Assembly: GCA_903862955.1 (NCBI GenBank)
Contig: CAIPAH010000021.1
Location: 1-64,000 of the forward strand
DNA: 64,000 nucleotides
Direction of reading: 5' to 3'
DNA from: an uncultured Opitutia bacterium
GTDB lineage: Bacteria > Verrucomicrobiota > Verrucomicrobiia > Opitutales > Opitutaceae
Positions within the stretch are counted from its first letter, which is position 1. Each line of letters opens with the position of its first letter. A program made the position numbers and the translations under genes. Positions 6,157 to 48,195 of this stretch are shown one piece after another. Below the pieces are notes generated by a model. It had not been told where the DNA came from and searched no databases. It was given only the letters and a program-made list of their open reading frames with translations.

Positions 6157-6208
6157 GCATCCCATAGCACGCTGTTCCGAAGCGGGTTGCAACGCGGGAA
6201 ACGATCCG

Positions 6209-6376
6209 GAACGGAAGCCGGAGGGTTTTTAGCCGGAAGCCAGGAAACCAGGAATCGGACGCTCGGACGCATGAACTCGAGCCAGAGCCGCAGCTTGGAT
6301 CCCGCCCTGCTCTCACCTGCTCCGTTCCTGGTTTCCTGGCTTCCGGCTAAAACCGGCTCGTCTCCGGCTCCGTTTT
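6209..6376. repeat. Very long palindrome, GCCAGGAAACCAGGAA family (copy 1)
   Basis: The arms at 6227-6254 and 6325-6352 are perfect 28-base inverted repeats (core AGCCGGAAGCCAGGAAACCA). Weaker complementarity extends outward through GGAAGCCGGAG and CTCCGGCTCC. The loop is about 70 bases. It fills the gap between two divergent genes. A related element is at 24201-24274. Confidence 0.85.
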
Positions 6377-6411
6377 GCCCAAGGCATGGCGTAGTTCGTT
6401 CCTCCTGCCCC

Positions 6412-7179
6412 ATGACCTCCACCGCTGGCCTGACCGCCCCGCTCTCCGCAGCCGCGACCAAGGACATCCTTGACCGCTTCTATCGCGACGGGAGCGTGAT
6501 CGTCCCGGGCGTGCTCGGCACTGAGGAGTGCGCCAAGCTCCGGGCCATCACCGACGAGATCGCCAAGACCGACCCCTCCTTCGTCATCCGCGAGCCCGAG
6601 GAAAAGAACCTCGCCTTCGTCGAGCTCTTCATCCGCGAGCCGATCCTGTCGCTCGTCCGCGCCATCCTCGGGCCCAACGCCCGCTTCTGCGCGCAAAACG
6701 TCATCCGCAACCAACCCGGCCAATCCATCTCGCACTGGCACGTCGACGACATCGTCGAATACCCGCTACCGCCCGACGTCCCCCGCTGGCCCGCCCCGCT
6801 GCCGCTCCCGTGGCTCAGCGTGCAGGTCGCACTCAGCGACATCCTCACGCTCGAAGACGGCCCGACCGAGATCGTGCCCGGCAGCCAACTCTCCGGCCGC
6901 GACTCCCCGAAGGAAAACCCCGTGTTCGAGGGCCAGGGCGCCGTGCCGCTGTTCTGCCGCGCCGGCGACATCTACCTCTTCAACCACCAAGTCTGGCACC
7001 GCGGCCGCCCGAACACCGGGAAGCGCACGCGTTACCTGATGCAGCTCCAATACGGCCGCGGCGACAATCCCGCCTGGCGCATGAAAGGCGCCATCCGCAC
7101 CCCCGGTCTCGAACGCATCCTCGCGAACGCCACCCCCGCCCTCCGCGAGTTCATGTACGCCGAGGTGAAGTATCGGTGA
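6412..7179 (+). CDS. Phytanoyl-CoA dioxygenase (PhyH) family protein
   Basis: This is a predicted Fe(II)/2-oxoglutarate-dependent oxygenase of 255 residues. The iron-binding facial triad is visible as H110-V-D112 in SISHWHVDD and the distal H197 in FNHQVWHRGRP; R206 or R208 in GKRTRYL probably binds 2-oxoglutarate. These enzymes hydroxylate small molecules; the substrate cannot be inferred. The ATG at 6412 was chosen because upstream codons lie in the palindrome. It is one of three PhyH genes in this window and has no obvious operon partner. Confidence 0.85.
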   Translation: MTSTAGLTAPLSAAATKDILDRFYRDGSVIVPGVLGTEECAKLRAITDEIAKTDPSFVIREPEEKNLAFVELFIREPILSLVRAILGPNARFCAQNVIRNQPGQSISHWHVDDIVEYPLPPDVPRWPAPLPLPWLSVQVALSDILTLEDGPTEIVPGSQLSGRDSPKENPVFEGQGAVPLFCRAGDIYLFNHQVWHRGRPNTGKRTRYLMQLQYGRGDNPAWRMKGAIRTPGLERILANATPALREFMYAEVKYR

Positions 7180-8860: not shown

Positions 8861-8896
8861 TGTTAAATCTTAACACTGGCATGTGAGAACTGAACA
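8861..8896 (+). promoter_or_regulatory. Tandem candidate DeoR operator
   Basis: A perfect dyad TGTTAAATCTTAACA (6-base arms, 3-base centre) at 8861-8875 is followed by TGTGAGAACTGAACA at 8882-8896. The two 15-mers agree at 11 positions and are spaced 21 bases centre to centre, two helical turns. They lie 47-82 bases upstream of the DeoR regulator start and are the only such signal before the long sugar locus. Confidence 0.55.
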
Positions 8897-8942
8897 CCCC
8901 GATGAGCGCCCCCTCATTCGCCACGACCTTCCTGCTCCGGGC

Positions 8943-9755
8943 ATGACCACCGCCGACCGCCGCCAGTTCATCCTCGACCGGCTCGAGGCGTCCGGCACCG
9001 GCAGCTACGGGGAATTCGCGTCCGCCCTGCGGGTCTCGACCATGACGGTCCGGCGCGACTTGGAGGAACTCATCCGGCAGGGCGCGGTGATCAAGACCGT
9101 CGGGGGCGTCCAGAAGGCGGCGGCGCCGTCCTATCTCCAGGAAACCGCCGTCCACTCCCGCATGGCCCTGCGCCGACAGGAGAAGCGCGCCATCGCCCGC
9201 GCCGCGCTCGAACTCGTCACGCCGGGTTCCACCCTCTTCCTCGACGGCAGCAGCACCTGCCTCGAGTTCGCCCGGCTGCTCGCCAAGGAAAGTTCCGGCC
9301 TCACCGTCGTCACCAACTCCGCCCTCGCCTGCCTCGAGCTGGGCAAGAGCAGCGGGCTAGCCGTTGTCGGCATCGGGGGGCTTTACGACGCCCTCAGCCT
9401 GTCCTTCGTCGGACCGCAGGCGGAGGATTGGGCCAAGACGCTCTTCGTGGATTTCGCCTTCATCGGCACCAAGGGCCTCCTCCCCGCCACCGGCACGTTC
9501 GAGTCCGCGGTCCCCACTTCCCGCATCAAGCAGATCATCGCCAGGCAGTGCGGCCGGCTCGTGTTGCTCGCCGACCACTCCAAATTTGGCCAGCGCGGAC
9601 TGAGCAAGGTGCTCGACATCGCGCAGGTCCACACCGTCGTCACCGACGACCGCACCGCCCGCGCCGACCTCGCCACCCTCGGCAAGAAGGTCCGATCCGT
9701 CGTGGTCGCCCCGGTCCGTCGCCACGCTATGAAAGGAACCGCCCATGCCACTTGA
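8943..9755 (+). CDS. DeoR family transcriptional regulator
   Basis: This 270-residue regulator is probably a repressor of the downstream sugar locus. The N-terminal winged helix-turn-helix (about residues 20-45, EFASALRVSTMTVRRDLEEL) is the DeoR signature. The C-terminal ligand-binding domain has the LFLDGSSTCLEFARLL and VVTNSALACLEL segments that bind phosphorylated sugars in relatives, and a late ADHSKFGQRGL motif. The ATG at 8943 was chosen because residues encoded further upstream overlap the candidate operator. It overlaps the aldolase gene by 11 bases, so it is co-transcribed with it. The inducer is probably a sugar phosphate made in this pathway. Confidence 0.9.
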   Translation: MTTADRRQFILDRLEASGTGSYGEFASALRVSTMTVRRDLEELIRQGAVIKTVGGVQKAAAPSYLQETAVHSRMALRRQEKRAIARAALELVTPGSTLFLDGSSTCLEFARLLAKESSGLTVVTNSALACLELGKSSGLAVVGIGGLYDALSLSFVGPQAEDWAKTLFVDFAFIGTKGLLPATGTFESAVPTSRIKQIIARQCGRLVLLADHSKFGQRGLSKVLDIAQVHTVVTDDRTARADLATLGKKVRSVVVAPVRRHAMKGTAHAT

Positions 9756-10641
9756 ACCCATCGGAAAGCTCATGGCCGCCGCCCGCGCCGGCCGCTACGC
9801 CCTCGGCTACTTCGAGAGCTGGAACCTCGAGTCGCTCCAAGGCGTGATCGACGCCGCCGAGTCCACCCGCTCGCCCATCATCATCGGGTTCAACGGCGAC
9901 TTCCTCAGCCGCCCCGGGCGCCGGGCCGCCGAGCGGCTGTCGTGGTATGGCGCGCTAGGACGCGCCGCGGCGGAATCCGCCAAGGTCCCGGTCGGCTTCA
10001 TTTTCAACGAGTGCCCCAACGACGAGTGGGTCCACGCCGCCGCGACCGCCGGCTTCAACCTCATCATGCCGTCCGATCCCGAGGCTTCCTACGAGGACTA
10101 CGAGCGGCGCGTGAAAGCCCTCACCGCCCACGCGCACGCGCACGGCACCGCCGTCGAGGCCGAGATCGGCACCCTGCCCTGCGGGGCATCCGGCACCGTC
10201 GGGGCGGACGGTGATATGACCGATCCCGAACTCGCCGCGCGTTTTGTGGCGGCCACCGGCATTGACCTGCTCGCGGTCAGCGTCGGCAACGTCCACATCA
10301 AGCTCTCCGGCCAGCAGGACTTGAACCTCGACCAACTGGACCGCATCACCCGGCGCGTCTCGATCCCGCTGGTGCTGCACGGCGGCACCGGCATCGCGAC
10401 CGACTCACTCAAGCAAGCGATCCAGCGCGGCGTGACGAAGGTCAACTACGGCACCTACCTGAAGCAGCGCTACCTGCTCGCCGTGCACAAGGCGCTGCAC
10501 AATCCCATCCCCAACCCGCACGAGCTGCTCGGCATTGGCGGAGAGCACGACGTGATGGTCGCGGGCCGGCTGGCGGTGCGGGACGCTGTTTTGGAACGAA
10601 TCGAAACCCTGGGTTGCTGCGGGAGGACTTTTCATGCCTGA
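9745..10641 (+). CDS. Class II fructose-bisphosphate aldolase family protein, divergent active site
   Basis: The 298-residue TIM-barrel protein is homologous to class II (zinc) aldolases that split ketose phosphates into DHAP and an aldehyde. Retained family features are VEAEIGTL (about 137-144), the ligand-type H184 in VGNVHIKLSG, H212 in PLVLHGGTG and the VNYGTYLKQ segment. The usual HLDHG motif, which carries the catalytic aspartate and first zinc histidine, reads FIFNEC here (N88, E89). Either the metal site is rebuilt or the reaction differs. Overlaps with deoR upstream and the PfkB kinase downstream show tight coupling. A sugar-phosphate substrate is likely; identity is open. Confidence 0.8.
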   Translation: MPLEPIGKLMAAARAGRYALGYFESWNLESLQGVIDAAESTRSPIIIGFNGDFLSRPGRRAAERLSWYGALGRAAAESAKVPVGFIFNECPNDEWVHAAATAGFNLIMPSDPEASYEDYERRVKALTAHAHAHGTAVEAEIGTLPCGASGTVGADGDMTDPELAARFVAATGIDLLAVSVGNVHIKLSGQQDLNLDQLDRITRRVSIPLVLHGGTGIATDSLKQAIQRGVTKVNYGTYLKQRYLLAVHKALHNPIPNPHELLGIGGEHDVMVAGRLAVRDAVLERIETLGCCGRTFHA

Positions 10642-11608
10642 CATGACTGCCATAGCTGAAATCGCCTGCGTTGGAATTCTCGTGGAAGACACCTTCTGCG
10701 GGCCGATGAAGGAAATGCCGCCTGAGGGCTCGCTGCTCGGCGTGGACGCCATGCCGGTGAAGGTCGGCGGCTGCGCGGCCAACGTCGCCATCGACTTGGC
10801 GAAGCAGGGCCTGTCCGTGGACGTCATCGGCTGCCTCGGCCGCGACGGCTCCGGCAAGTCGCTCGTCGCCTCGCTGGAAAAGCAGGGCGCGAGCTGCCGC
10901 CACATGATCTACACGGACCGCTTTCCGACGAGCCGCACGGTGGTCCTCCTCGTCGAGGGCCAGGACCGCCGGTTCATCCACATGTTTGGCGCGAACCAGG
11001 ACCTGTCCGTCGACAAGATCGACCGCGCCTGGCTGGACGGCGTGAAGGTCTTCTACTTCGGCGGGCTGTGTGCGATGCCGGGCATCAATTTCGCCGCCTT
11101 CCGCGAGCTGCTGAAATATTGCCGTTCCAAGGGCATCGTGACGGTCGTGGACGTCGTCGTCCCGCAGCAATTTTCCGGCGGCGATGAGCTCAACTCCCTG
11201 CTGCCCGAGATCGACTACTTCCTCCCCAACGACGACGAGGCGAAGCACCTCACCGGCCTCGCCGACCCGATGGACCAGCTCCGCCACTTCCTGAAGCACG
11301 GCGCCCGCACCGTGATCGTCACGCAGGGCAAGGCCGGCGCCCTCGCGGCGCGCGGTGGCCAGTTTTGGCGCAGCGGCATCTTCCCCGCCAAGGTCGTCGA
11401 TCCCTCCGGTTCCGGCGATGCCTTCGACGCCGGCGTCATCACCGCGATCCGCCGCGGCTGGGACCTGCCCAAGATGCTCGCCTACGCCAGCGCCCTCGGC
11501 TCGTCCGCCACGCGCGCCGTCGGCACCACCGACGGCGTGTTCACCGCCGCCGAGGCCGAAGCGTTCATCGCCTCCCACGCGCTGCCCGTCACCACCGGCA
11601 AGCTCTGA
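10634..11608 (+). CDS. PfkB family carbohydrate kinase
   Basis: This is a 324-residue ribokinase-fold sugar kinase. The N-terminal KVGGCAANVAIDLAKQGL segment is the first PfkB signature. The second, DPSGSGDAFDAG near residues 256-267, contains the catalytic base D262 and the anion hole. It overlaps the aldolase gene by eight bases. With the lyxose-isomerase-like gene downstream, a plausible role is phosphorylating a ketose (for instance fructose from mannose) before aldol cleavage. The exact sugar cannot be read from the sequence. Confidence 0.9.
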   Translation: MPDMTAIAEIACVGILVEDTFCGPMKEMPPEGSLLGVDAMPVKVGGCAANVAIDLAKQGLSVDVIGCLGRDGSGKSLVASLEKQGASCRHMIYTDRFPTSRTVVLLVEGQDRRFIHMFGANQDLSVDKIDRAWLDGVKVFYFGGLCAMPGINFAAFRELLKYCRSKGIVTVVDVVVPQQFSGGDELNSLLPEIDYFLPNDDEAKHLTGLADPMDQLRHFLKHGARTVIVTQGKAGALAARGGQFWRSGIFPAKVVDPSGSGDAFDAGVITAIRRGWDLPKMLAYASALGSSATRAVGTTDGVFTAAEAEAFIASHALPVTTGKL

Positions 11609-13702: not shown

Positions 13703-14122
13703 ATGGAAATCAAAATGAAGATGCCCGACCTGGCCACGACTGACTCCGCGATCAAGGTGATCCGGTGGCTCGTCACGCCCGGCCAGCCAGTCCAGCGCGG
13801 CCAGGCCTTGCTCGAGGTCGAGACCGACAAAGCCACGATGGAAGTCGAGTGCATCGCCACCGGCATTTTCAAGCAGCCCCTCGCCCAGCCCGGTGACACC
13901 CTGCTCGCCGGCCAGGCCCTGGCCGCGATTGAAGTCGAAGGCCCCGCTCGTCCCGCTGCGGCCGCTCCGCCAACCACACCTCCAGAAACTTCGGCGAAGG
14001 AGAGCCCGCCAATCGAAAATCGAAATTCGAAATTCGAAAATCCGGCGCCTCGCGCCGCGGGCGGAATGTTCGCCAAGAACCGCGCCGCAGCCAATCGCCC
14101 CAACCAAAGCCAAACGCCTTAA
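13703..14122 (+). CDS. Stand-alone lipoyl-domain protein (E2 N-terminus only)
   Basis: This 139-residue protein has a single biotinyl/lipoyl domain (residues 1-78) with the lipoylation motif ETDKATMEVE; K43 is the predicted modified lysine. After a proline/alanine linker it ends with no peripheral-subunit-binding region and no acyltransferase domain, so it cannot act as a complete E2. E1-alpha and E1-beta genes lie 7 and 9 kb downstream in the same locus. It may serve as a free acyl carrier for that E1, with catalytic E2 and E3 supplied elsewhere. Part of the linker (about residues 103-113) is encoded by an AT-rich low-complexity repeat. The lipA and lipB genes are elsewhere in this window. 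Confidence 0.85.
   Translation: MEIKMKMPDLATTDSAIKVIRWLVTPGQPVQRGQALLEVETDKATMEVECIATGIFKQPLAQPGDTLLAGQALAAIEVEGPARPAAAAPPTTPPETSAKESPPIENRNSKFENPAPRAAGGMFAKNRAAANRPNQSQTP
14010..14042 (+). repeat. Low-complexity TCGAAAATCGAAATTC repeat inside a coding region
   Basis: Tandem variants of ATCGAAA/ATTCGAAA make a short AT-rich stretch in GC-rich coding DNA. It encodes the linker segment IENRNSKFENP of the lipoyl protein. A similar GAAATCCGAA-type stretch is intergenic near 63723-63790. Confidence 0.65.
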
Positions 14123-14143: not shown

Positions 14144-15361
14144 ATGAGCTCCCCCGCCGCCCCCACCGTCGCACCCGCAACGCTCGAGCCAGAATTGGCT
14201 GAAGCCTACCGCCAGTGCGCGGACAAGAGCGTCCTCGCGGCGCTCAATCCAAAGATCTTCTTCGGCTATTTCTCGGTCTGCGCCGACCCTTCGCAGGGAC
14301 ACGGCTCCAACACGACCTTCCCCGGCCTCGACTGGGGCCAGTCCGCCGAGGCGCTGCTTTGGCTGGGCCGCAAGGCCGAGGTGCTCGCGAGCTGGAACTA
14401 CGTGAAGACCTTCCTGCGCGACGACGGCCTGATCCCCTTCGCCATCGTGCCCGACCAGGCCGGCACGACGGCGATGATGAAGCTGCCCAAGTCGGACAAG
14501 GAGTATCCCTTCGTCGTCGCGGCCAACGGCGGGGCCTACTCCCACTGGTTCCCCGGCAACCCGCTGCTGATGCTGCCGAATGTCACCGTCGTGCAGATGG
14601 CCGACGCGATCTTCCGGCACACGCAGGACCGGGCGTGGCTGGCGGCGCAGCAGGATTACCTGCGCGCCGTGTCCGACTGGATGGTGTTGCAAGTCACGCC
14701 CGAGGGACTCGTCAAGGGCGGCGGCTTCTACATCGAGCGTCCCCCACGGCTCGACCACGACGGCGTCACGCAATGCTACACCGCTGACGCCCTGCGCCTC
14801 GCCTCCCAGCTGACGGGCCAGTCCAGCTACGCGGCCGTCGCCGACCGGATCACCGCCTGCTTCCGCCAGAAATTCTGGGCGGGCGACCACTGCGTCGAAT
14901 ACATCAACCTCGAGCGCGGGGCCATTTCACATCACGGCCTCACCGACGTGGACTGGGCCGCCATCGCCATGGGCCTCGCCACGCCGGAGCAGGTGAAGAC
15001 GCTCTGGCCGCAGCTGCGCGACAATCGCGACTTTCTCTACAACGGTATTCCCACCGGCATCTCCACGCGGCCGGAAACCTACGAAGACTGGGAAATGCTT
15101 TATCTCGACCGCCACGATCTCGCGGCGATGGGCCGGGTCTGGTTCGTGGAAGCCCGGGCGCGCCACGTCATGGGCGACCGCGCCGGCATCCTCGAATCGC
15201 TGCGCCAGGTGGCGCGCGTGGGCCGCGCGAACGATTGGTATTGGCGCGAACGCTATTATTCCGAGCGCAGCGGCGACCTCGGGAGCTATCGCATCAACAC
15301 CTACTGCGAATATCCCGCGACGTTCATCCGCATCGTCCACCGCTACGTGCTGGGCGCCTGA
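14144..15361 (+). CDS. Six-hairpin glycosidase-like protein
   Basis: The 405-residue protein has the pattern of an (alpha/alpha)6 barrel glycosidase: an early FFGYFSVCADPSQGHGSNTT segment, LDWGQSAEALLWLGR, FLRDDGLIPFAIVPD, and acidic or aromatic loops such as LDHDGVTQCYTADALRLA and TRPETYEDWEML. Related architectures occur in GH63/GH15-type and unclassified families. It lacks a signal peptide. It follows the lipoyl gene after 21 bases and precedes the DUF4450 protein by 5 bases, consistent with one operon. Substrate unknown. Confidence 0.7.
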   Translation: MSSPAAPTVAPATLEPELAEAYRQCADKSVLAALNPKIFFGYFSVCADPSQGHGSNTTFPGLDWGQSAEALLWLGRKAEVLASWNYVKTFLRDDGLIPFAIVPDQAGTTAMMKLPKSDKEYPFVVAANGGAYSHWFPGNPLLMLPNVTVVQMADAIFRHTQDRAWLAAQQDYLRAVSDWMVLQVTPEGLVKGGGFYIERPPRLDHDGVTQCYTADALRLASQLTGQSSYAAVADRITACFRQKFWAGDHCVEYINLERGAISHHGLTDVDWAAIAMGLATPEQVKTLWPQLRDNRDFLYNGIPTGISTRPETYEDWEMLYLDRHDLAAMGRVWFVEARARHVMGDRAGILESLRQVARVGRANDWYWRERYYSERSGDLGSYRINTYCEYPATFIRIVHRYVLGA

Positions 15362-18732: not shown

Positions 18733-21341
18733 GTGCCGCGAAGCCCATTTCCGCCGTCGGCAGGCCCAAGCTCTGCTTCACGCTGCTGAACCACTGGAGC
18801 TACACCGGCATTGGCTGGAACCTGGGACTCGAGTCCTGCGCGCAGTCCATCACCGACAGCCTCGACATGGCGGACTACGCGCCGAGCGTGAAGACCGGCA
18901 TCAACCTCGACGCGCTCACCTACGAACTGGTCGCGGAGCACTATCCCCACATCAACCGCCGGCTGCAGCGTTACCTCGAGGCGGGCCAGGTGGAAATCGT
19001 CGGCGGCACCTTCGGCCAGCCCATCGGCTCGATGGTGTCGGGCGAGTCCAACCTGCGGCAGCTCATCGTCGGCCAGGAGACGATCACCCGCGTTCTCGGC
19101 CGGCCGGTCGCCGTTTTTCTCGAGGAGGAGGAGATGAGCCACCCGCAGATTCCCCAACTGCTTACCCTGACGGGCTATCGCTTCGGGAGCATGGCGCAGT
19201 GCGATACATGGGGCCGCCACGGCGCGCCGTCCATGGAGGAGGCCGTCATCTGGTGGGAAGGCGCGGACGGCACCCGCATGCTCGCGGTGCCGGCGAACCC
19301 GCTGGTTTTCCACCCGCCAATGGTCACCCACGACATCGACTGGCTCTGGACGGACGATGGCCGCGCCACCGTCGGTCGTATGGCCGGCTCGCGCACGCCG
19401 CTCGTGTTGAAATGGACGGAGTTCGGCTGGGAGAAACTCACCGGCAAATCCATCAACAAGTTTGACCCGGAGCTTTTCCGCGCGCTCTCCGACCAGTTCG
19501 ACGTCGAGTATCTCACGATCGAGCAATACCTCGACCGGCAGGCGGCCCCGGGCGCGCCCGCCATCGCGGTAAAGCGGCCGGTGGTGGATGATTTCGCCAA
19601 GCTGCTGCCTTGGGGCATCGGCGGAGACCAGATCCGTCGCTTCGGCCGCGAAGTGGAGGCCGTGCTGCACGCGGCGGAGCGGTTCGAGGCCATCGCGCAC
19701 CTGCTGGATTCCGCCTTCGACGAGGCCGCCGCGCTCCACGAGGCATGGCGGCAACTGCTCGCGGCACAAAGCCACGACGTCTGCCTGTGCGAATACACGC
19801 GCCACCAAGGCGCCACGCCGCCCGCCGACCCGGTCCTCGACACGCATTTCCAGACCTGGGGTTCCTACGGCTACCGTTTCATGGACAATGCCGCCGTCGC
19901 GGGACGCAAGGTGTTGGGCCGCGCCTTGCACGCCATCGCGCAGTCCGTCGGAACCGCGCCGGGCGTCGCACCTGGCAGTCTCGCCACGGTGGTCTTCAAT
20001 CCCTGCGGCTTCGCACGCGATGCGCTGGTCACAACGGGCACCCTGCAACTCGAAGGCCTCAACTCAACCGCGGTGCACGTCCGTGATTCCGCGGGGAAAA
20101 CCGTGCCGGCCCAGCTGCTCTCCAGCGAGCGCAACGCGAACGGCCAGCTGGTCTGCGCCGATCTCGCCTTCCCCGCCCGCGCGCTGCCGTCGGTAGGCTA
20201 CGACACCTATTTTCTCGTTCCCACGGCGACCGCTGCCGTGACTCCAGCGACGGACCTTCGCGTGGACCGGGACGCCCACGTGCTCGAAAACTCCCGGGTG
20301 CGCGTCAGTCTCGATCCGGTCAGCGGCGCCATCTGCAGCCTCGTCGACCGGCAAAGCGGAAAGGAACTGCTGGCGGGCGCGGCACGGCCTTTCCCCACGC
20401 TCACGGGAGAAGCTAATGGTTCCTCACCGCTCGCGCGTCCGCCCAACACCCCGGTTGCGCCCTACAACACCGCGCAAACGCAGGCGCAATTCACCTGGCT
20501 GGAGACGGGGCCGCTGCGCGCAAGGGTGCGGGCGACGCACCCCGACACGCGCGGGCTGCGGTTTGAGATCACGGTCACGCTTGCCGCAGATTCGGCCGAC
20601 GTCGACGTGGCGGTGCGCGTCTTCCCCGACCTGCCGCCGAAAACCGGCGAGGCGAAGGTCAACGGCTGGCAGTTTCCATTGGAGATCCACGAGGGCTACT
20701 GGCTCGAGTTTGTCCCCGGCTTCCCGGTCGCGACGGTCTTGCGCGACTATCCGTTCGGTGTGGAGCCCAGCCGGAAGCAGACCCTGCAGGCGCTCTCGTG
20801 GCTCGACCTGATGGCGGCGGATGGCTCCGGGCTGCTGGTCGTGCACAGCGGCACGCAATATTTCAAGCGCCGCGACGACGGCGGCTTCGCCAATCTCGTC
20901 GTGCGCGAGTGGGAGTCTCACTTTACCGGCGAGTTCGGCTGGCCGCGGACCTGCGCCTTCCGCTACGTGCTGCGCCCCCATGCGGCCGGTTTCACTAACA
21001 CCGACCGGCTCCAGGCCGTCGCAACCTTCGACCAAAAGCCTCGCTGCATCGTCCACGCGCCGCAAGCTGGCCCGCTGCCACGCCGCCAGAGTTTCCTGGC
21101 CGTGTCGAACGCCACGCTCTCGGCCTTTCGGCGCCCGGCGGGCACAGAAACGTGCGAGCTCCGCGTGATCGAATGCGAGGGGAAGCCCAGCGCGTGCCAC
21201 GTCACCACGACGCTGCCCTTGCACACGCGCCAGGCGACCGACGCCATGGGCCGGACCACCGATGCATCCAACCCTGTCCCTCTCGCCGCCGACATCGCGC
21301 TGCGTCCCTGGGAAATTAGGCAATTCCGACTTTTAAAATGA
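18729..21341 (+). CDS. GH38-like protein lacking the usual nucleophile
   Basis: The 870-residue protein aligns by eye along its first 300 residues with GH38 alpha-mannosidases but has altered catalytic residues. Where the true GH38 in this window has HWDREW, it has NHWSYTG, so the metal-binding aspartate is serine. Where GH38 has MPDEFTVSGE it has QPIGSMVSGE, so the nucleophilic aspartate is I99. The region normally DMFGHTSQLPQI reads EEEMSHPQIPQL. A later QSHDVCLC segment keeps one histidine. It cannot use the standard zinc-dependent retaining mechanism. It may be an unclassified glycosidase, perhaps using the E132-E135 acidic run, or a binding protein. It is tightly coupled at both ends. 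Confidence 0.75.
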   Translation: MSAAKPISAVGRPKLCFTLLNHWSYTGIGWNLGLESCAQSITDSLDMADYAPSVKTGINLDALTYELVAEHYPHINRRLQRYLEAGQVEIVGGTFGQPIGSMVSGESNLRQLIVGQETITRVLGRPVAVFLEEEEMSHPQIPQLLTLTGYRFGSMAQCDTWGRHGAPSMEEAVIWWEGADGTRMLAVPANPLVFHPPMVTHDIDWLWTDDGRATVGRMAGSRTPLVLKWTEFGWEKLTGKSINKFDPELFRALSDQFDVEYLTIEQYLDRQAAPGAPAIAVKRPVVDDFAKLLPWGIGGDQIRRFGREVEAVLHAAERFEAIAHLLDSAFDEAAALHEAWRQLLAAQSHDVCLCEYTRHQGATPPADPVLDTHFQTWGSYGYRFMDNAAVAGRKVLGRALHAIAQSVGTAPGVAPGSLATVVFNPCGFARDALVTTGTLQLEGLNSTAVHVRDSAGKTVPAQLLSSERNANGQLVCADLAFPARALPSVGYDTYFLVPTATAAVTPATDLRVDRDAHVLENSRVRVSLDPVSGAICSLVDRQSGKELLAGAARPFPTLTGEANGSSPLARPPNTPVAPYNTAQTQAQFTWLETGPLRARVRATHPDTRGLRFEITVTLAADSADVDVAVRVFPDLPPKTGEAKVNGWQFPLEIHEGYWLEFVPGFPVATVLRDYPFGVEPSRKQTLQALSWLDLMAADGSGLLVVHSGTQYFKRRDDGGFANLVVREWESHFTGEFGWPRTCAFRYVLRPHAAGFTNTDRLQAVATFDQKPRCIVHAPQAGPLPRRQSFLAVSNATLSAFRRPAGTETCELRVIECEGKPSACHVTTTLPLHTRQATDAMGRTTDASNPVPLAADIALRPWEIRQFRLLK

Positions 21342-22339
21342 AAACCACCTCCGCCCCCGGCGCCGCCCCTGCGACCGCCACTCACCGGGACCGGGCTTCC
21401 CTGCTCGGCCTGTACGAACGCATTGTCCTCATCCGCGAGTTCGAGGAGCGCGTGAAGTTTCTTTTCCTCGAGGGCACGATGCCCGGCACCATCCACCAAT
21501 GTCAGGGCCAGGAGGCCACCGCCGTCGGCGTGTGTAGCGCGCTGCAACCGGGCGACTACATCACCTCGACGTTCCGCGGCCACGGCCACGCGCTGGCCAA
21601 GGGGCTGAGCGTACAGGAGCTCCTCGACGAGCTGTTCGGCGCGACCACCGGCTGCTGCAAGGGCAAGGGCGGCTCGATGCACATGGGCAACATGGACAAG
21701 GGCATGGTCCCCGGTATCGCCATCGTCGCGGGCGGCATTCCCCTCGCCGCAGGCATGGCGCTCGCATTCAAGATGCAAAAAAAGCCGCAGGTCGTCGCGT
21801 GCTTCTTCGGCGACGGCGCCGTCGCCGAGGGCGCGTTCCACGAGGGCGTCAACATGGCCGCCATCTGGAACCTGCCCGTCGTGCTCGTCTGCGAAAACAA
21901 CCTCTACGGCGCCTCCACCCACATCGGGAAGGTGATGAAGAACCCAAAAATCTCCGACCGCGCCGCGTCGTATGGCTTCCGCGGCGAAACCGTCGACGGC
22001 AACGACGTGCTCGCCGTCCTCGCCGCCGCCGAACGCGCCGTCGCGGAGTGTCGCGCCGGCAAGGGCCCCGTGCTGCTCGAGCTGCTCACCTACCGCCGCA
22101 CGGGGCATTCCCGCCGCGACGCCTGCCACTACCAGCCGAAAGACGAGCGCGAGGCGTGGTTCGCGCGCGACCCGATCACGCGCTTCGCCGAGGTGCTGCT
22201 CGCGCGCCCGGATGTGAAGCAGGCCGATCTCGACGCCATCAAGGCGAAGATCGATGCCGAGATCCAAACCGCCGTCGTGAACGCCCAGAAGGCCCCGCAA
22301 CCCACCCTCGCCAACCTCACCGAGGACGTCTTCGCCTGA
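21338..22339 (+). CDS. 2-oxoacid dehydrogenase E1 component, alpha subunit
   Basis: This is the thiamine-diphosphate-dependent E1-alpha of a pyruvate/acetoin/branched-chain-type dehydrogenase, 333 residues. The ThDP-binding motif runs from GDG (158-160) to ENN (186-188). The FRGHGHALAKG segment near residue 80 is the E1-alpha loop seen in pyruvate and acetoin enzymes. It would decarboxylate a 2-oxo compound and, with E1-beta, acylate a lipoyl domain. The start overlaps the GH38-like gene stop by four bases. A PhyH dioxygenase gene separates it from E1-beta. Confidence 0.9.
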   Translation: MKTTSAPGAAPATATHRDRASLLGLYERIVLIREFEERVKFLFLEGTMPGTIHQCQGQEATAVGVCSALQPGDYITSTFRGHGHALAKGLSVQELLDELFGATTGCCKGKGGSMHMGNMDKGMVPGIAIVAGGIPLAAGMALAFKMQKKPQVVACFFGDGAVAEGAFHEGVNMAAIWNLPVVLVCENNLYGASTHIGKVMKNPKISDRAASYGFRGETVDGNDVLAVLAAAERAVAECRAGKGPVLLELLTYRRTGHSRRDACHYQPKDEREAWFARDPITRFAEVLLARPDVKQADLDAIKAKIDAEIQTAVVNAQKAPQPTLANLTEDVFA

Positions 22340-22350
22340 CCCACCCCGCC

Positions 22351-23172
22351 ATGAGCACCACCCCCGTTATCCCGCCTTCCGCCGCTCAGAAGAGCACCGC
22401 CACCGCGCAGTATGCGCGGGATGGCTTTGTCATCCTGCCTCCCGTGCTGCCCGCCGACCTGCTTGCGCGAGTGCGCCGGCGCATCGACGCGGTTTACGCC
22501 GGCGAATATGAGACCGGCATCGCGCCCTGCGCCAAACCGACCGGCCAAAAGGAGCCTCCCACCAAGCTGGTTAAGATCGACAACGCCCACCGCTCCGACC
22601 GCACGATTCTCGAAGTCGTCAGCCACCCGGCCATCGGCCAATGGGCCGCCGCGCTCACCGGCGCAAAAATGGTGCAGGTCTTCGCCACGCAGCTGCTGAT
22701 CAAGCCGCCGGGCGGCCAGGGCGGCGTCAACGTCGGCTGGCACCAGGACCAGGAATACTGGGACCCGGCCCTCACCGGCGAGTTGTTCACCGCGTGGGTC
22801 GCGATCAGCGACGTCACCGCGGATTCCGGCCCGATGCGCTTCGTCCCGGGCTCCCATCACTGGGGCCTGCTCAAGGCCGGCGACTTCTTTAGCGACAAGC
22901 TCGACGAACTGAAGCAGCGCATCCACGCGAAGAGCGGCGGCGGCAAATGGGAGGAAGTCGCCGCGATCCTGCCTCCGGGCGGCGTCAGCTTCCACCACCG
23001 GCTCACCGTCCACGGCAGCGGCGAGAACCACGCCGCCGGCCCGCGCGTGAGCTTCGCCATCCATTTCCGCACCGAAAAATCCGCCCTGCGCGAGGGCACG
23101 AAATGGCAGGACGCCGGGTATCTCAACGACTTCGCCGATCCGGTCGGCAGCCCCGTCAGCTACCGCGCTTAA
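22351..23172 (+). CDS. Phytanoyl-CoA dioxygenase (PhyH) family protein
   Basis: This is a predicted Fe(II)/2-oxoglutarate oxygenase of 273 residues. The iron ligands are H131 and D133 in GWHQDQEYW and the distal H221 in LTVHGSG; R232 in GPRVSFAIHF is the likely 2-oxoglutarate contact. The gene lies between E1-alpha and E1-beta, 11 bases after the first and 11 before the second, so it is part of that unit. A direct role could be hydroxylating the substrate that later becomes the 2-oxo acid, but this is inference from position. Confidence 0.85.
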   Translation: MSTTPVIPPSAAQKSTATAQYARDGFVILPPVLPADLLARVRRRIDAVYAGEYETGIAPCAKPTGQKEPPTKLVKIDNAHRSDRTILEVVSHPAIGQWAAALTGAKMVQVFATQLLIKPPGGQGGVNVGWHQDQEYWDPALTGELFTAWVAISDVTADSGPMRFVPGSHHWGLLKAGDFFSDKLDELKQRIHAKSGGGKWEEVAAILPPGGVSFHHRLTVHGSGENHAAGPRVSFAIHFRTEKSALREGTKWQDAGYLNDFADPVGSPVSYRA

Positions 23173-23183
23173 TTTTTAAAAAT

Positions 23184-24200
23184 ATGAAACGACAAGGCAT
23201 TGCAGAGGCTCTCCGTGACGGCATCGCCGAGGAAATGATGCGCGACTCGAGCGTGTTTTGCATCGGCGAGGACATCGGCGTCCCCGGCGGCTGGGGCGGC
23301 GCGTTCACCGTCACGCTCGGGCTGTCCGAGAAATTTCCTGGCCGGATCATCGACACGCCCATCGCGGAACTCGGTTTCACCGGCATGGCCGTCGGCGCCG
23401 CCATGATGGGCATGCGACCCATCGCCGACATGCAGTATGGCGACTTCCTCTTCCTCGCCAGCGACCAGCTGATCAACAACGCCGCCAAGATGCGCTACAT
23501 GTCCGGCGGCACCATCAAGGTGCCCATGGTCATGCGCGCCCCGATCGGCGCCACCGGCCGCGGCTCGCAGCACGCGCAGAGCATGGAGCGTTATTTCACC
23601 GGCGTGCCCGGACTGAAGGTCGTCGCCGTGTCCACCGCCTACGACGCGAAAGGCATGCTCAAGGCCGCTGTGCGCGACGACAACCCCGTCATGATCTTCG
23701 AGCACAAGCTGCTCTACGGCTCCAAGGGCGCGCGCGCCGAGCCCGGAGCCGTCGACGCCACCAGCGACATCCCCGACGAGGATTACGTGGTGCCGCTCGA
23801 CCGCGCCGTGGTGCGTCGTGAGGGCAAGCACGTCACGATCCTCGGCTGGCTGCTGATGGCGCACTTCGCTGCCCAAGCCGCCGAGCAACTCGCTCAGGAG
23901 GGCATAGAGGCGGAGGTCATCGACGTCCGCAGCCTGTCGCCGATTGATTACGAGACCATCGGCGCGTCGCTCCGCAAGACGGGTCGCGTGGTCATCGTCG
24001 AGGAAGGACCCAAGACCGGCGGCGTGAGCGCCGAGATCGCCGCGGGCATCATGGAGCACTGCGGCGACAGCCTGCAGGCCCCGGTCGTGCGCGTTGCCTC
24101 CCCCGACGTGCCCGTGCCCTTCAGCCCCATCCTGGAAAACGCCTACCGCCCCGACGTCGCCCGCATCGTTGCCGCCGCGCGCTCACTGGCCCAGATGTAA
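23184..24200 (+). CDS. 2-oxoacid dehydrogenase E1 component, beta subunit
   Basis: The 338-residue E1-beta has the transketolase-type pyrimidine-binding domain (CIGEDIGVPGGWGGAF, DTPIAELGFTGMAVGAAMMG) and the C-terminal transketolase domain (EVIDVRSLSPIDYETI, VVIVEEGPKTGG). It forms the alpha2beta2 heterotetramer with E1-alpha. The ATG at 23184 follows the PhyH stop after an AT-rich TTTTTAAAAAT spacer. No E2 acyltransferase or E3 dihydrolipoamide dehydrogenase follows; the only lipoyl protein is the short one at 13703. Acetoin- and pyruvate-type substrates are both possible. Confidence 0.9.
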   Translation: MKRQGIAEALRDGIAEEMMRDSSVFCIGEDIGVPGGWGGAFTVTLGLSEKFPGRIIDTPIAELGFTGMAVGAAMMGMRPIADMQYGDFLFLASDQLINNAAKMRYMSGGTIKVPMVMRAPIGATGRGSQHAQSMERYFTGVPGLKVVAVSTAYDAKGMLKAAVRDDNPVMIFEHKLLYGSKGARAEPGAVDATSDIPDEDYVVPLDRAVVRREGKHVTILGWLLMAHFAAQAAEQLAQEGIEAEVIDVRSLSPIDYETIGASLRKTGRVVIVEEGPKTGGVSAEIAAGIMEHCGDSLQAPVVRVASPDVPVPFSPILENAYRPDVARIVAAARSLAQM

Positions 24201-24360: not shown

Positions 24361-24915
24361 ATGATCACCCAAGCTGAACTGAAACGCCGCCAGCAGGAGG
24401 CCTATGGCTATTTCCAGCAGGCCCAACTCGTCATCACCCCCGCCGAGCAGGAGCAGATCGAGGTCGCGGACTTCGGCCTGAGCGAATTCGAAAAGACCGG
24501 CCTCGGCGTGCTCGTCTACGTCAACACCCTGCGCTGCTGCGCCAAGGAGCTCGCCATGTGGCCACGCCAGACTTGCCCCGAACACCGCCACCCCAACGTC
24601 GGCGGCCAGCCCGGCAAGGAGGAGACGTTCCGCTGCCGCTGGGGAAAGGTCTTCCTCTACGTCTCCGGCGCCAAGACCCCCGCGCCCCACTGCCGCCCAC
24701 CCGCGGGCCGCGAGGCCACCTACACCGTCTGGCACGAGGTCGTGCTCAACCCGGGCGACCAATACACCATCACGCCCAACACCCCGCACTGGTTCCAAGC
24801 CGGCGACGAGGGCGCGGTGGTTTCCGAATTCTCCACGCACAGCACCGACGAAAACGACATCTTCACCGACAAATCGATCGGTCGCGCCACGAAGGTGGTT
24901 GAAGGAAAACCATGA
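24361..24915 (+). CDS. D-lyxose/D-mannose isomerase-like cupin
   Basis: The 184-residue cupin matches the D-lyxose isomerase family, which interconverts lyxose and xylulose and often mannose and fructose. Metal ligands are visible: H75 and H77 in CPEHRHPNVGG, E88 in GKEETFRC and H143 in NTPHWFQAG. With a GH38 mannosidase in the same locus, mannose to fructose is a reasonable in vivo reaction, feeding the PfkB kinase and aldolase; this is inference. The end overlaps the aldolase/dehydrogenase gene by four bases. Confidence 0.8.
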   Translation: MITQAELKRRQQEAYGYFQQAQLVITPAEQEQIEVADFGLSEFEKTGLGVLVYVNTLRCCAKELAMWPRQTCPEHRHPNVGGQPGKEETFRCRWGKVFLYVSGAKTPAPHCRPPAGREATYTVWHEVVLNPGDQYTITPNTPHWFQAGDEGAVVSEFSTHSTDENDIFTDKSIGRATKVVEGKP

Positions 24916-26885
24916 AGAGCCTCTGGAACGAAACGGAAGCCGCGCAGTATCCCGGCGACCTCGGCCAACGCGTCTACACGTCCCGCCTGCTCGGGCGCGA
25001 CGCCTCACTCGTGCTCCACGGCGGGGGCAACACCTCCGTCAAGCTGCGCGAGAAAAACATCTTCGGCGAGGAGGAGGACCTGCTCTACGTCAAGGGCAGC
25101 GGCTGGGACCTCGAGACGATCGAGGCCGCCGGCTTCTCGCCGTGCCGGATGAACCACCTGCTCAGGCTCGCGAAACTCCCCGAGCTCACCGACCTGCAGA
25201 TGGCGAACGAACTCAAGGGCTGCCTGACCAACTCGGGCGCGCCCATGCCGTCGGTCGAAGCAATCCTCCATGCGATCCTTCCGGGCAAGTTCGTGGACCA
25301 CACCCACACCGACGCCCTGATCTCCATCACCAACACCGCCGGCGGCCTGCAGCGGGTGCAGGAGATCTTCAGCGACCGCGTCGTCTTCATCCCGTATGTG
25401 ATGCCCGGCTTCAAACTCGCGCGCCTCGCCGCCGAGCTTTACGCGAAACAGGCCGGCCCCCGCACCGTCGGGCTCGTGCTGATGAACCACGGCTTGTTCA
25501 CCTTCGCCGACACCGCGAAGGGCGCCTACGAGCTGATGATCGAGCTGGTGACGCTCGCGGAAAATTACCTCGCCAAGCACCGCGCGTGGGAGCTCGCGAC
25601 GCCCGCCCCCGTCTCCGCTCCGCGCCCTGCCCGCCTCGAAATCGCGGCCTTGCGGAAGGAAATCTCCTCCGCCCTCGGCGCTCCCGCCATCGTCGCCGTG
25701 CAAGGCACCGCCTCCGGCCACGCCTTCGCCGCGCGCCCGGATGTGGCCCAAATCTCGCAGCAGGGCCCGGCCACACCCGACCACGTCATCCGCACCAAGC
25801 GCATCCCGCAGGTGGGCCGCGACGTCGCCGCCTTCCGCTCTGCCTACGAGCAGTATTTCAAGGCCTGCGCCGCCACCGCCGGTCGCAAGCTTGTCATGCT
25901 CGACCCTGCGCCGCGCGTGCTGCTCGATCCCGAACTGGGCCTCTGCACCATCGGCCGCACCGCCAAGGAAGCCGCCATCTCGACCGATATCTACCACCAC
26001 ACCATCGACATCATTCTGCGCGCCACGGCACTCGGCGGCTGGAAGGCACTCCCGGCCCAGGACATCTTCGACGTCGAATACTGGGACCTCGAGCAGGCCA
26101 AGCTGCGCGCCGCCGGCAAGCCGGCCGTGTTCGCAGGGGAAATCGCCCTCGTGACTGGCGCCGCCTCGGGCATCGGCAAGGCTTGCGTCGAGTCACTGCT
26201 CAAACGCGGCGCGGCCGTGGTCGGCCTCGACGTCAATCCCGCCATTACGAAGCTGCACAAGCGGCCCGATTTTCATGGCATCGTCTGCGACCTGACCTCT
26301 GAGTCCGCCCTGCCCGCGGCATTGGAGGAGGCCGTCCGGAAGTTCGGCGGACTGGACCTGCTGATCCTCAACGCCGGCATCTTCCCGCCCGGCGCGCCGA
26401 TCGCGGACCTCAAGTCCGCCCTCTGGCACAAGGTCATGACCGTCAACCTCGACGCCAATTTCCTGCTGCTGCGCGAGTGCCATCCGCTGCTGAAGCTCGC
26501 GCCCAACGGCGGCCGCGTCGTCGTCATTGGCTCGAAAAATGTCCCCGCGCCCGGCCCCGGTGCCGCCGCCTACTCGGCGTCGAAGGCCGCCGTCAACCAG
26601 CTCGTCCGCGTCGCCGCGCTCGAATGGGGCAAGGACCGCATCCGCCTCAACTCGATCCACCCCAACATGGTCTTCGACACCGCCCTGTGGACGCCGGAGA
26701 TCCTCGCGTCGCGCGCCCAGCACTACGGCCTCACCGTCGAGGCCTACAAGACCAACAACGTCCTCAAGACCGAGGTCACCAGCCGTGACGTCGCCGAGCT
26801 CGCCGCCGAGATGTGCGGCCCGCTCTTCGCCAAAACCACCGCCGCGCAAGTCCCCGTCGACGGCGGCAACGACCGCGTGATATAA
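24912..26885 (+). CDS. Bifunctional class II aldolase / short-chain dehydrogenase (RhaD-type fusion)
   Basis: The 657-residue fusion has an N-terminal class II aldolase/adducin domain with LHGGGNTSVK (35-44) and the zinc motif H130-T-H132 in VDHTHTDALIS. The C-terminal short-chain dehydrogenase starts near residue 405 with VTGAASGIGKA and has the catalytic YSASKAA. Family members are annotated as rhamnulose-1-phosphate aldolase with lactaldehyde dehydrogenase, producing DHAP and lactate. Here no rhamnose kinase or rhamnose isomerase of the usual type is adjacent, so the substrate may be another 6-deoxy or pentulose phosphate. It could supply the acid oxidised before the E1 step. Confidence 0.9.
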   Translation: MKSLWNETEAAQYPGDLGQRVYTSRLLGRDASLVLHGGGNTSVKLREKNIFGEEEDLLYVKGSGWDLETIEAAGFSPCRMNHLLRLAKLPELTDLQMANELKGCLTNSGAPMPSVEAILHAILPGKFVDHTHTDALISITNTAGGLQRVQEIFSDRVVFIPYVMPGFKLARLAAELYAKQAGPRTVGLVLMNHGLFTFADTAKGAYELMIELVTLAENYLAKHRAWELATPAPVSAPRPARLEIAALRKEISSALGAPAIVAVQGTASGHAFAARPDVAQISQQGPATPDHVIRTKRIPQVGRDVAAFRSAYEQYFKACAATAGRKLVMLDPAPRVLLDPELGLCTIGRTAKEAAISTDIYHHTIDIILRATALGGWKALPAQDIFDVEYWDLEQAKLRAAGKPAVFAGEIALVTGAASGIGKACVESLLKRGAAVVGLDVNPAITKLHKRPDFHGIVCDLTSESALPAALEEAVRKFGGLDLLILNAGIFPPGAPIADLKSALWHKVMTVNLDANFLLLRECHPLLKLAPNGGRVVVIGSKNVPAPGPGAAAYSASKAAVNQLVRVAALEWGKDRIRLNSIHPNMVFDTALWTPEILASRAQHYGLTVEAYKTNNVLKTEVTSRDVAELAAEMCGPLFAKTTAAQVPVDGGNDRVI

Positions 26886-43276: not shown

Positions 43277-43366
43277 TGGGCGACGCAACTTGGTTCTGTC
43301 ACGCCTGATGTGGGGGGAAAAGGGCAAAAACTTGCGCCGCCGGGCGCGCTGCGCGAGGTTGCGCGC

Positions 43367-44044
43367 GTGCCGAGCGCTCCCAGCACCCTCCCCGCCCACA
43401 CGACCGTCGACTGGGGTCACACCCGGTATGCGGCCGCGCGCGCGCGGCAGGATGAACTGGTGACGCAGCGGATCGCGGGTGAGATCGGCGACACGCTCGT
43501 CTTCACCGAGCATGCCCCGGTCTTCACGCTCGGCATGCGCCGCGGCTCGGAGCTCAACCTCGTCTGGGACGCGGCCGAGCTCGCCCGGCAGGGGATCGAA
43601 GTGGCCAAGACCAATCGGGGCGGCGACATCACGTATCACGGACCCGGCCAGGTCGTGGGGTATCCCATTGTCTCCCTCGCGCCGCGCCCCGACCTGCATG
43701 CCTACCTGCGCTTTCTCGAACAGGTGCTGATCAACAGCGTCGGTTCACTCGGCCTCGCCGCCGCGCGGCGCGAGGGCAAGACCGGCATCTGGATCGGTCC
43801 GCGCAAGATCGCCGCCATCGGCGTCGCCGTGCGCCGCTGGGTGGCCTACCATGGTTTCGCGCTCAACGTCTCGCCCGATCTCAATCATTTCTCGGGCATC
43901 ATTCCGTGCGGCATCAATGCCGCGGACGGCAGCGTCACCTCGCTCTCAGCCGAACTCGGCCGCACGCTCGATCCCGCCGAGGCCAAGGCCGTGCTCGCGC
44001 GCGAATTCTGGCAGCTGTGGCCGGAATTCCTGCGGGGAGCCTAA
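43367..44044 (+). CDS. lipB: Octanoyl-[ACP]:protein N-octanoyltransferase
   Basis: LipB moves octanoate from acyl carrier protein to lipoyl domains. The 225-residue form from the GTG at 43367 fits the family; a GTG at 43310 is also possible. The signature NRGGDITYHGPGQVVGYPI is present, the catalytic cysteine is in GIIPCGI and the lysine in GPRKIAAIGV. With lipA 0.6 kb downstream it supplies lipoylation for the 2-oxoacid dehydrogenases, including the lipoyl protein at 13703. Confidence 0.93.
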   Translation: MPSAPSTLPAHTTVDWGHTRYAAARARQDELVTQRIAGEIGDTLVFTEHAPVFTLGMRRGSELNLVWDAAELARQGIEVAKTNRGGDITYHGPGQVVGYPIVSLAPRPDLHAYLRFLEQVLINSVGSLGLAAARREGKTGIWIGPRKIAAIGVAVRRWVAYHGFALNVSPDLNHFSGIIPCGINAADGSVTSLSAELGRTLDPAEAKAVLAREFWQLWPEFLRGA

Positions 44045-44589: not shown

Positions 44590-44678
44590 GCCGCGATTAG
44601 GCCCAGCGCGGCCAAAAAAGACACGCTAAAAAAACGTGCCCAAAATCGCATTCCGTGTTTACGTTTTCCCTTCAACCG

Positions 44679-45575
44679 ATGGATACCACGCGCAAACCCT
44701 CCTGGCTCCGCGCCAAACTGCCCGCCGGGCCGGGCTACAACGCCACGCGCCGGCTGGTGGACCAGAACGAGCTCCACACTGTTTGCCAGAGCGCGCAGTG
44801 CCCCAATCTCGGCGAATGCTGGTCGCGCGGCACGGCCACCGTGATGATTCTCGGCAACATCTGCACGCGGTCATGCAACTTCTGCGCGATCCAGACCGGC
44901 CGGCCCACGGAACTCGATCTCGGCGAGCCCGCCCGCGTCGCCGACGCCGTCGCCCGGATGAATCTCAAGCACTGCGTCATCACCAGCGTCGCCCGCGACG
45001 AGCTGGCCGACGGCGGCGCCGGCGTGTGGGCCGCCACCATCCGCGCCATCCGCCACCGCAACCCGTCCACCGCCATCGAGGTGCTCGTGCCGGATTTCAA
45101 GGGCCAGCTGGAGCTGGTTGACGTCGTGCTCGCCGCCAAGCCCGACATCTACAACCACAACCTCGAGACCGTGGAGCGCCTCCAGAAACCCGTGCGCGTG
45201 CAGGCCCGCTACGAGCGGTCGCGCTCCGTCCTCCGCCACGCCAAGAGCCGCGGCTTCGTGACCAAAACCGGCATCATGCTCGGCTTGGGCGAGGAACAGG
45301 CGGAGATCGAGCAGACGCTTCGCGATATCGCCTCGGACAAGACCGACATTCTCACGATCGGCCAATACCTGCAGCCCACGCCACAGCACTTGCCGATCTC
45401 CCGTTGGGTCGAACCCGCGGAATTCGTCCGCTGGAAGGAGTTCGGCCTCTCCATCGGCCTCGGTGTCGTCGAGAGCGGCCCTCTCGTCCGCTCCAGCTAC
45501 CACGCCGACGAACAGTCACAGAAATACACCGGCGTGGAGCATCTCAACACCGCCAACGCCCTGGCCAGCCACTGA
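44679..45575 (+). CDS. lipA: Lipoyl synthase
   Basis: LipA is a radical SAM enzyme that inserts two sulfurs into octanoyl-lysine. The auxiliary cluster motif is CQSAQCPNLGEC near the N-terminus, and the radical SAM motif is CTRSCNFC. The C-terminal SSYHADEQ serine motif is present. The ATG at 44679 (MDTTRKPSWLR) is preferred over 44655 because it begins at the conserved region. Confidence 0.95.
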   Translation: MDTTRKPSWLRAKLPAGPGYNATRRLVDQNELHTVCQSAQCPNLGECWSRGTATVMILGNICTRSCNFCAIQTGRPTELDLGEPARVADAVARMNLKHCVITSVARDELADGGAGVWAATIRAIRHRNPSTAIEVLVPDFKGQLELVDVVLAAKPDIYNHNLETVERLQKPVRVQARYERSRSVLRHAKSRGFVTKTGIMLGLGEEQAEIEQTLRDIASDKTDILTIGQYLQPTPQHLPISRWVEPAEFVRWKEFGLSIGLGVVESGPLVRSSYHADEQSQKYTGVEHLNTANALASH

Positions 45576-47358: not shown

Positions 47359-48195
47359 ATGGTTGCATCCACTTCCTCCCCCACCTCCCACCACCGCCTC
47401 ACGCCCGCCGAGGTCGCCCGTTACAACGCGGAGGGCTACCACATCTTCCGCGAACAGCTGTTCCCGCCGGCCAAGTTCGACGGCCTGAAGTCCACGTTCG
47501 AGGACATCCTCAACGGCCTCGAAACCGGCGTGCGCCCGGAGTCGATGGACGTGCCGCATTTCCAGCACCCCGAGTTGTTCAAGTGGCTGCTCGCCGACGA
47601 GGTGCTCGACCTCGTGGAGCCCATCCTCGGGCCGGACATCGCCCTGTTCTCCAGCCATTTCATCTGCAAGCCCCGCGGCAACGGCCAGCGCGTGCCGTGG
47701 CACGAGGACTCCCACTACTGGAAAACGATGATCACCCCGATGGAAGTGGTCACCGTCTGGCTCGCGATCGACCCGTCCACCAAGCTGAACGGCTGCATGA
47801 ACGTCATCCCGCGCACGCACAACACCGGCAAGCTGGGCTTTTCCGACTACGACGACCTCACGCCCGGCACCGCGGTGTTCAACGACGAGATCAAGGCCGC
47901 CCAGCGCGACCCGAGCAAGGCCGTCGCCATCGAACTCGAGGCCGGCCAGTGCAGCCTCCACGACGGCCGCATCATCCATGGCAGTGCGCCCAACACCAGT
48001 GCCATCCGCCGCTGCGGCTACACCATGCGCTACATCAGCGCGGGCGTGAAGCTCAACTCGGACATGGTGGGCAAATTCCACAACATTTACCTCGCCCGCG
48101 GCCAGGACCGCGCCGGCAACGTCTACGGCGACCCCAAGCAGGCCTACCCCGAGCTCGCCCGCTTCCGCGCCAAACACGGCAAGAACGGCCACTGA
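47359..48195 (+). CDS. Phytanoyl-CoA dioxygenase (PhyH) family protein
   Basis: This is a 278-residue Fe(II)/2-oxoglutarate oxygenase. The iron ligands are H and D in VPWHEDSHYW (about 115-117) and the distal histidine in GRIIHGSAPN; RRCGYTMRY supplies the likely 2-oxoglutarate arginine. The family includes ectoine, quorum-signal and natural-product hydroxylases. Control by the adjacent AraC regulator suggests a catabolic substrate that also acts as inducer. Confidence 0.87.
   Translation: MVASTSSPTSHHRLTPAEVARYNAEGYHIFREQLFPPAKFDGLKSTFEDILNGLETGVRPESMDVPHFQHPELFKWLLADEVLDLVEPILGPDIALFSSHFICKPRGNGQRVPWHEDSHYWKTMITPMEVVTVWLAIDPSTKLNGCMNVIPRTHNTGKLGFSDYDDLTPGTAVFNDEIKAAQRDPSKAVAIELEAGQCSLHDGRIIHGSAPNTSAIRRCGYTMRYISAGVKLNSDMVGKFHNIYLARGQDRAGNVYGDPKQAYPELARFRAKHGKNGH

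Follow-up and report, generated by a model that had tools for sequence, protein, structure and literature searches.

What can a lipoyl domain do for a 2-oxoacid dehydrogenase-type E1 when the polypeptide that bears it stops short of the acyltransferase core? The covalent tether between lipoyl arm and core is usually seen as a defining feature of the 2-oxoacid dehydrogenase complexes, and the question is raised by a small gene in the 64-kb window (the whole stretch of DNA analysed here), which encodes a lipoyl protein in the same locus as genes for E1-alpha and E1-beta.

The lipoyl carrier and its gene cluster

The features to which the text refers are as follows:

8883..9755, + strand: DeoR-family regulator at the head of the cluster (position conserved among relatives)
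9745..10641, + strand: class II ketose-bisphosphate-type aldolase (PF01116; conserved beside the lipoyl gene)
10634..11608, + strand: PfkB-type sugar kinase (PF00294; conserved beside the lipoyl gene)
13703..14122, + strand: free lipoyl carrier protein, 139 aa, predicted lipoyl-lysine K43 (PF00364, AlphaFold2, orthologues)
14060..14089, + strand: tail motif G-G-M-F-A-K-N-R-A-A, similar to helix 1 of the peripheral subunit-binding domain (PSBD), presumed E1-docking relic (linker conservation, profile matches, AlphaFold2 helix in a fused relative)
21338..22339, + strand: E1-alpha of the ThDP-dependent 2-oxoacid dehydrogenase type (PF00676, E=7.4e-81)
22345..23172, + strand: PhyH-type 2-oxoglutarate dioxygenase between E1-alpha and E1-beta (PF05721, E=7.3e-30)
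about 23184..24200, + strand: E1-beta (PF02779/PF02780; NCBIfam PRK09212 above cut-off)
24912..26885, + strand: RhaD-like bifunctional aldolase/short-chain dehydrogenase (NF006196, 1068.7 bits, cut-off 831)
43310..44044 (start approximate), + strand: LipB/LplA-type lipoyl (octanoyl) transferase (PF21948, E=1e-49)
44655..45575, + strand: lipoyl synthase LipA (TIGR00510, 358.8 bits, cut-off 310)

The ORF at 13703-14122 starts with ATG, and the only Pfam match of its product is Biotin_lipoyl (PF00364, E=4.6e-15, residues 4-76), in which K43 lies within the lipoyl-type sequence VETDKATME (ETDKA). An intact lipoyl domain is followed by a Pro/Ala linker, a conserved MFAKNRAA tail and the stop codon. 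In the AlphaFold2 model residues 1-80 adopt a lipoyl fold with high confidence (pLDDT about 84-97) and the tail is disordered, so that the earlier description of a full lipoyl domain with K43, ending after a short linker, holds good. Pfam searches of the carrier found neither a peripheral subunit-binding domain (PF02817), of which just a helix-1-like motif is present, nor a PF00198 core with DHRxxxG. Moreover, the next gene begins at 14144, 22 bases past the carrier stop, which leaves no space for a core. The linker at 14012-14053 of the window holds a repeat-like insert, IENRNSKFENP (DNA aatcgaaaatcgaaattcgaaattcgaaaatcc), variants of which occur in close relatives; it may thus derive from the insertion of a small mobile repeat into coding sequence.

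The genes of the cluster all lie on the plus strand, in the order DeoR, class II aldolase, PfkB kinase, glycosidase-like protein, lipoyl protein, two glycosidase-like proteins, GH38-like protein, E1-alpha, PhyH dioxygenase, E1-beta, RhaD-like aldolase/dehydrogenase and GH38. The E1 pair does share the locus with the carrier, as had been noted, though 7-10 kb downstream and with glycosidase-like genes between. Profile matches give the two proteins a full set of E1 domains, and the nearest solved relative of E1-alpha is human PDH E1-alpha. The aldolase, the kinase and the RhaD-like enzyme point to a cluster for sugar or sugar-acid catabolism. It is an accessory cluster: out of 273 sampled genomes of the order, 4 have a close match to E1-beta. 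The PhyH-type gene between the E1 genes is missing from many relatives, and its product is probably outside the mechanism; two further PhyH-like dioxygenase genes were recognized by reading the sequence (6187-7179 and 47359-48195), making three in the window with the one found by Pfam (22345-23172). Still within the window, 30 kb downstream of the carrier, are the genes for the LipB-type transferase and for LipA, of which this genome has a single copy that scores over the family cut-off.

Relatives of the carrier and the fate of the E2 core

A search with E1-alpha recovered 58 loci from other genomes, and in Opitutae, Planctomycetota, Chloroflexota and Steroidobacter one again meets aldolase, kinase, lipoyl gene, E1-alpha and E1-beta together. 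The same shortened protein is encoded by the three closest relatives, whose lipoyl domains are 92-96% identical to that of the carrier. In most loci the position of the lipoyl gene is occupied by a single protein of about 340-370 residues consisting of lipoyl domain, linker and E2 core; the core of this fused form belongs to PF00198 (E=1.2e-48 in the locus L047) and shows an E2 fold in the predicted model. Because more distant members of the window genus have such a full lipoyl-E2 at the same gene position, the core must have been cleanly lost. Furthermore, a single clade of the core tree (support 100/99) unites the cores of this cluster and separates them from those of PDH and ODH, so that the fused form is ancestral. 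The carrier is thus the swinging arm of a former E2 whose core was deleted right after a short helix motif.

When eight different E2 cores were searched by tblastn against the window and 16 core-less loci, in a run that detected control loci at once, the only match in the 64 kb was at chance level (E 0.35), and the 16 loci likewise gave chance matches only. This, together with Pfam, upholds the claim that the protein has no E2 catalytic domain, and the wider one that the locus has neither E2 nor E3, since no E2 core or E3 was found in the 64 kb and E3-type genes lie on other contigs. A frameshift that masks a full-length E2, which the earlier note had named as the result that would speak against it, was looked for and not found: the relatives end alike, no core DNA is present in any frame, and independent assemblies agree. 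Most of the relatives are metagenome-assembled genomes (MAGs); the free form also occurs in Steroidobacter and Peristeroidobacter isolates and is thus not a MAG artefact. In Steroidobacter the lipoyl gene directly adjoins E1, and in one such locus (L059:9998-12001) E1-alpha and E1-beta form one chain beside an 80-residue linkerless free lipoyl protein.

The loss was not a single event. On a tree of E1-alpha and E1-beta with 57 loci, six of which were left unlabelled, several through contig ends, the core-less free lipoyl state requires at least nine changes, and well-supported branches enforce every one of them: the window clade, L053, L066, L051, L056, Steroidobacter/Peristeroidobacter, L072, L074 and L085. 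The state spans Opitutae, Steroidobacter and Planctomycetota, and a single origin was rejected (p-AU 6e-61; 4e-72 for Opitutae alone, the groups having been named after the tree was seen). The lipoyl domain, by contrast with the core, is missing from few loci, and contig ends account for most of these. In two Actinomycetota MAGs it is fused to the N-terminus of E1-alpha, without a core (L089:9512-10951 and L091:9172-10629); elsewhere a single 738-residue frame joins lipoyl domain, E2 core and E1-alpha (L079:8756-10969). One locus, L050, does not fit simple loss, for its core groups with that of L047 (98/92) and its E1 with that of L051 (96/92), so some exchange or regain is possible. L048 and L053 form a sister pair of which only one member has the core; they stand side by side on the E1 tree, and their end branches measure 0.02-0.03. 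About nine such cuts in distant bacteria suggest that the remaining complex can be borrowed or is unneeded.

The missing core was also sought elsewhere in the genomes. The window genome has three E2 cores, those of PDH E2, ODH E2 and an unusual E1-beta/lipoyl/E2 fusion, and each has an in-frame lipoyl domain; consequently no lipoyl-free E2 awaits this arm, and the E2 homologues without lipoyl domain for which the earlier note had proposed to look are not there. The fusion is one polypeptide of at least 698 aa (L013:28-2124, or G000:C13 near 189312-191400), and comparable frames in relatives span about 1030-1070 aa. For the seven core-less genomes of the genus, the top E2-core matches belong to housekeeping enzymes at about 36% identity or lower, and in the other core-less genomes tested E2 cores are at most 38% identical. 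In the same comparison, five genomes of the genus with the fused form, plus one from its sister genus, have the orthologous core at 60-100% identity (100% being the query's own genome), and a planctomycete control has it at 48%. A transfer of the core to another contig in the free genomes is therefore rejected, housekeeping cores at most about 38% identical being all that these genomes offer. No convincing compensating gene was found in the free loci of the genus, where the candidates were mostly noise frames and clade-specific neighbours, and no PDH-type core was found in one free genome (G006, 92% complete).

The window genome encodes a second stand-alone lipoyl protein (L006:1264-1737 on the minus strand, or G000:C22 near 202533), which has 157 aa with a lipoyl and a complete E3-binding domain and no core. 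Its neighbours are kdsA and the gene for a CTP synthase, no E1 was seen close by, and free lipoyl proteins of its size occur in many Opitutaceae genomes.

Selection and the conserved tail motif

Comparison of the window with close free relatives gives the lipoyl domain a dN/dS of 0.04-0.15, which indicates that the gene is maintained. The cores that remain have a dN/dS of 0.08-0.21, close to the value for the lipoyl domain and higher than the one for E1-beta; this purifying selection indicates that their step matters where cores persist. The fused cores retain the catalytic His, and most have Asn at the HxxxD position. Catalytic decay, by a change of Asp to Asn or Ser in DHRxxD, is an unpersuasive reading of this, because Azotobacter E2p apparently has Asn614 natively (title of PDB 1dpb). 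The core is therefore useful where present, yet replaceable.

Across the linkers a single element, [ML]FA[KR]NRAA, is conserved; linker length differs between close species. Truncated proteins stop a few residues past this motif in the window clade, L051, L053, L066 and L072, which are five of the nine events; in the other four the motif is lost too. Deeper relatives have a complete subunit-binding domain at the motif position, with helix 1 sequences such as PLMIRNLAKE, SPLARNLAKE and TPAARNRARE, and from these a profile of PSBD helix 1 was built. With the full 10-residue profile the motif site was the best in just 20 of 28 linkers, because the motif is without the leading Ser-Pro, and with its 8-residue core in 27 of 28. 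As the profile had been shortened from 10 to 8 residues, a column-permuted control was run: in a reduced set the motif site was the best in 23 of 24 linkers, which 4 of 2000 column-permuted profiles equalled, these 24 linkers being related and thus not independent. In the AlphaFold2 model of a fused relative the motif forms a helix (142-151) of low confidence. The subunit-binding domain binds E1 or E3 in known complexes (PMC2663715). Since the tail resembles PSBD helix 1 and is conserved, it is probably a shrunken docking helix of the subunit-binding domain, an E1-docking relic.

Likeness to known systems and the role of the arm

With the E2 components of 2-oxoacid dehydrogenase complexes the carrier shares the ETDKA lipoyl domain, the Pro/Ala linker, the apparent relic of the subunit-binding helix and direct descent, but it is without a catalytic core or a complete subunit-binding domain and so would have no acyltransferase activity of its own. 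The E3-binding protein (protein X) is likewise E2-derived, with catalysis lost and the lipoyl domain retained; within the complex it still has a subunit-binding domain and a core-like domain, both of which the carrier has lost save the helix motif. GcvH is also a free lipoyl protein that serves separate enzymes, but it belongs to PF01597, while the carrier matches PF00364 only, has no GCV_H domain, descends from E2 and has E1-alpha/beta as partners rather than gcvP/gcvT, so that it is not GcvH. LbpA of Hdr-like sulfur oxidation, a GcvH-related protein that works with Hdr-like proteins and its own ligase, is similarly bound to one gene cluster (PMC6067878). The carrier differs in its partners, E1-alpha/beta and sugar enzymes, and identity with LbpA is ruled out by the missing GCV_H match, the cluster of aldolase, kinase, E1 and glycosidases, and the distance of 30 kb to LipB/LipA. 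A biotin carrier protein is ruled out as well, by the motif ETDKATME in place of AMKM and by the E1-alpha/beta genes in the cluster. Actinobacterial OdhA/KGD, which relies on lipoyl-lysine provided in trans by PDH E2 and thereby establishes arm sharing between complexes (PMC10415282), also has the lipoyl arm split from the acyltransferase and needs cross-complex service. It is a mirror image, with E1 and core but no arm there and E1 and arm but no core here. We found nothing specific in the literature on this cluster or on free lipoyl domains that serve E1. Judged from its sequence, then, the carrier is a free lipoyl arm derived from E2 and apparently dedicated to one E1.

We assume, with a probability of roughly 0.55, that the lipoyl arm serves this dedicated E1 and that acyl transfer and re-oxidation take place in trans on a housekeeping E2 core and E3. 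The ancestor would have been a lipoyl-linker-core E2 working with the E1-alpha/E1-beta of a carbohydrate-catabolism cluster. In the present form, K43 would be lipoylated by LipB/LipA, and the tail motif, given its conservation and its likeness to PSBD helix 1, may dock the arm on E1. By the chemistry of its family, E1 with ThDP would then decarboxylate or cleave a keto substrate and reductively acylate the lipoyl group, an E2 core in trans, most simply that of the housekeeping PDH, would pass the acyl group to CoA, and the housekeeping E3 would re-oxidise the dihydrolipoyl group. PDH E2 occurs in nearly all genomes, and its presence thus says little on the partner in trans. What speaks against this picture is that no PDH-type core was found in G006, that the carrier tail is disordered in the AlphaFold2 model and the helix of the fused relative of low confidence, and that four of the nine truncations are without the motif.

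Another possibility, which we consider unlikely, is that the acyl group never needs CoA: E1 would acylate or only reduce the arm, the product would leave by hydrolysis or to another acceptor or the arm would act as an oxidant, and the E2 core would be optional. This would agree with at least nine losses of the core while the lipoyl domain stays, with the lipoyl domain on E1-alpha without a core in the two Actinomycetota MAGs, and with the lack of any compensating gene seen in the free loci of the genus. Against it, the remaining cores are under purifying selection and keep the catalytic His, their frequent Asn at HxxxD is apparently native in Azotobacter E2p too, and the cluster has no conserved hydrolase or alternative acceptor. 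The broader proposal of a ThDP/lipoyl enzyme class, in which E1 with a free or E1-fused lipoyl domain would be the whole machine, with no E2-core transfer to CoA and hence a core dropped at least nine times, is equally tentative.

It is still less probable that the carrier is an auxiliary extra arm that adds capacity or specificity while the cluster E1 uses the arms of the housekeeping PDH E2. That E2 is in the genome with its own lipoyl domain, and surplus lipoyl domains are frequent in E2 proteins; if the PDH arms sufficed, however, the free domain should have been lost, yet it is kept in nearly all loci and under selection. We give little credence to a decaying, functionless remnant of an inactivated E2 gene. 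The protein is shorter than its ancestors and its linker varies in length between close species, but the low dN/dS of the lipoyl domain after core loss, the invariant lipoyl motif, the kept tail motif and the same shape in several species, as well as in the Steroidobacter isolates, all argue for maintenance. A sequencing or assembly artefact, with a frameshift or misjoin concealing the core, has a practically negligible chance even though the window and most relatives are MAG data, because the window and the free loci hold no core DNA in any frame and independent assemblies concur.

Preferring, as we do, service of the dedicated E1 with the remaining steps in trans, we find that the earlier note was right about a free lipoyl domain accompanied by a dedicated E1 pair, the gene proving to be maintained and the cluster conserved, and that it missed the full-E2 ancestry, the repeated core loss and the docking-like motif in what it had taken for a linker. 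The tether of arm and core has thus been given up repeatedly, inside one genus as well as across phyla, the core being deleted and the arm retained. Natural sister pairs with and without the core, such as L048/L053, make the need of the tether for channelling directly testable, and the same pairs allow one to ask whether housekeeping E2 cores serve foreign arms.
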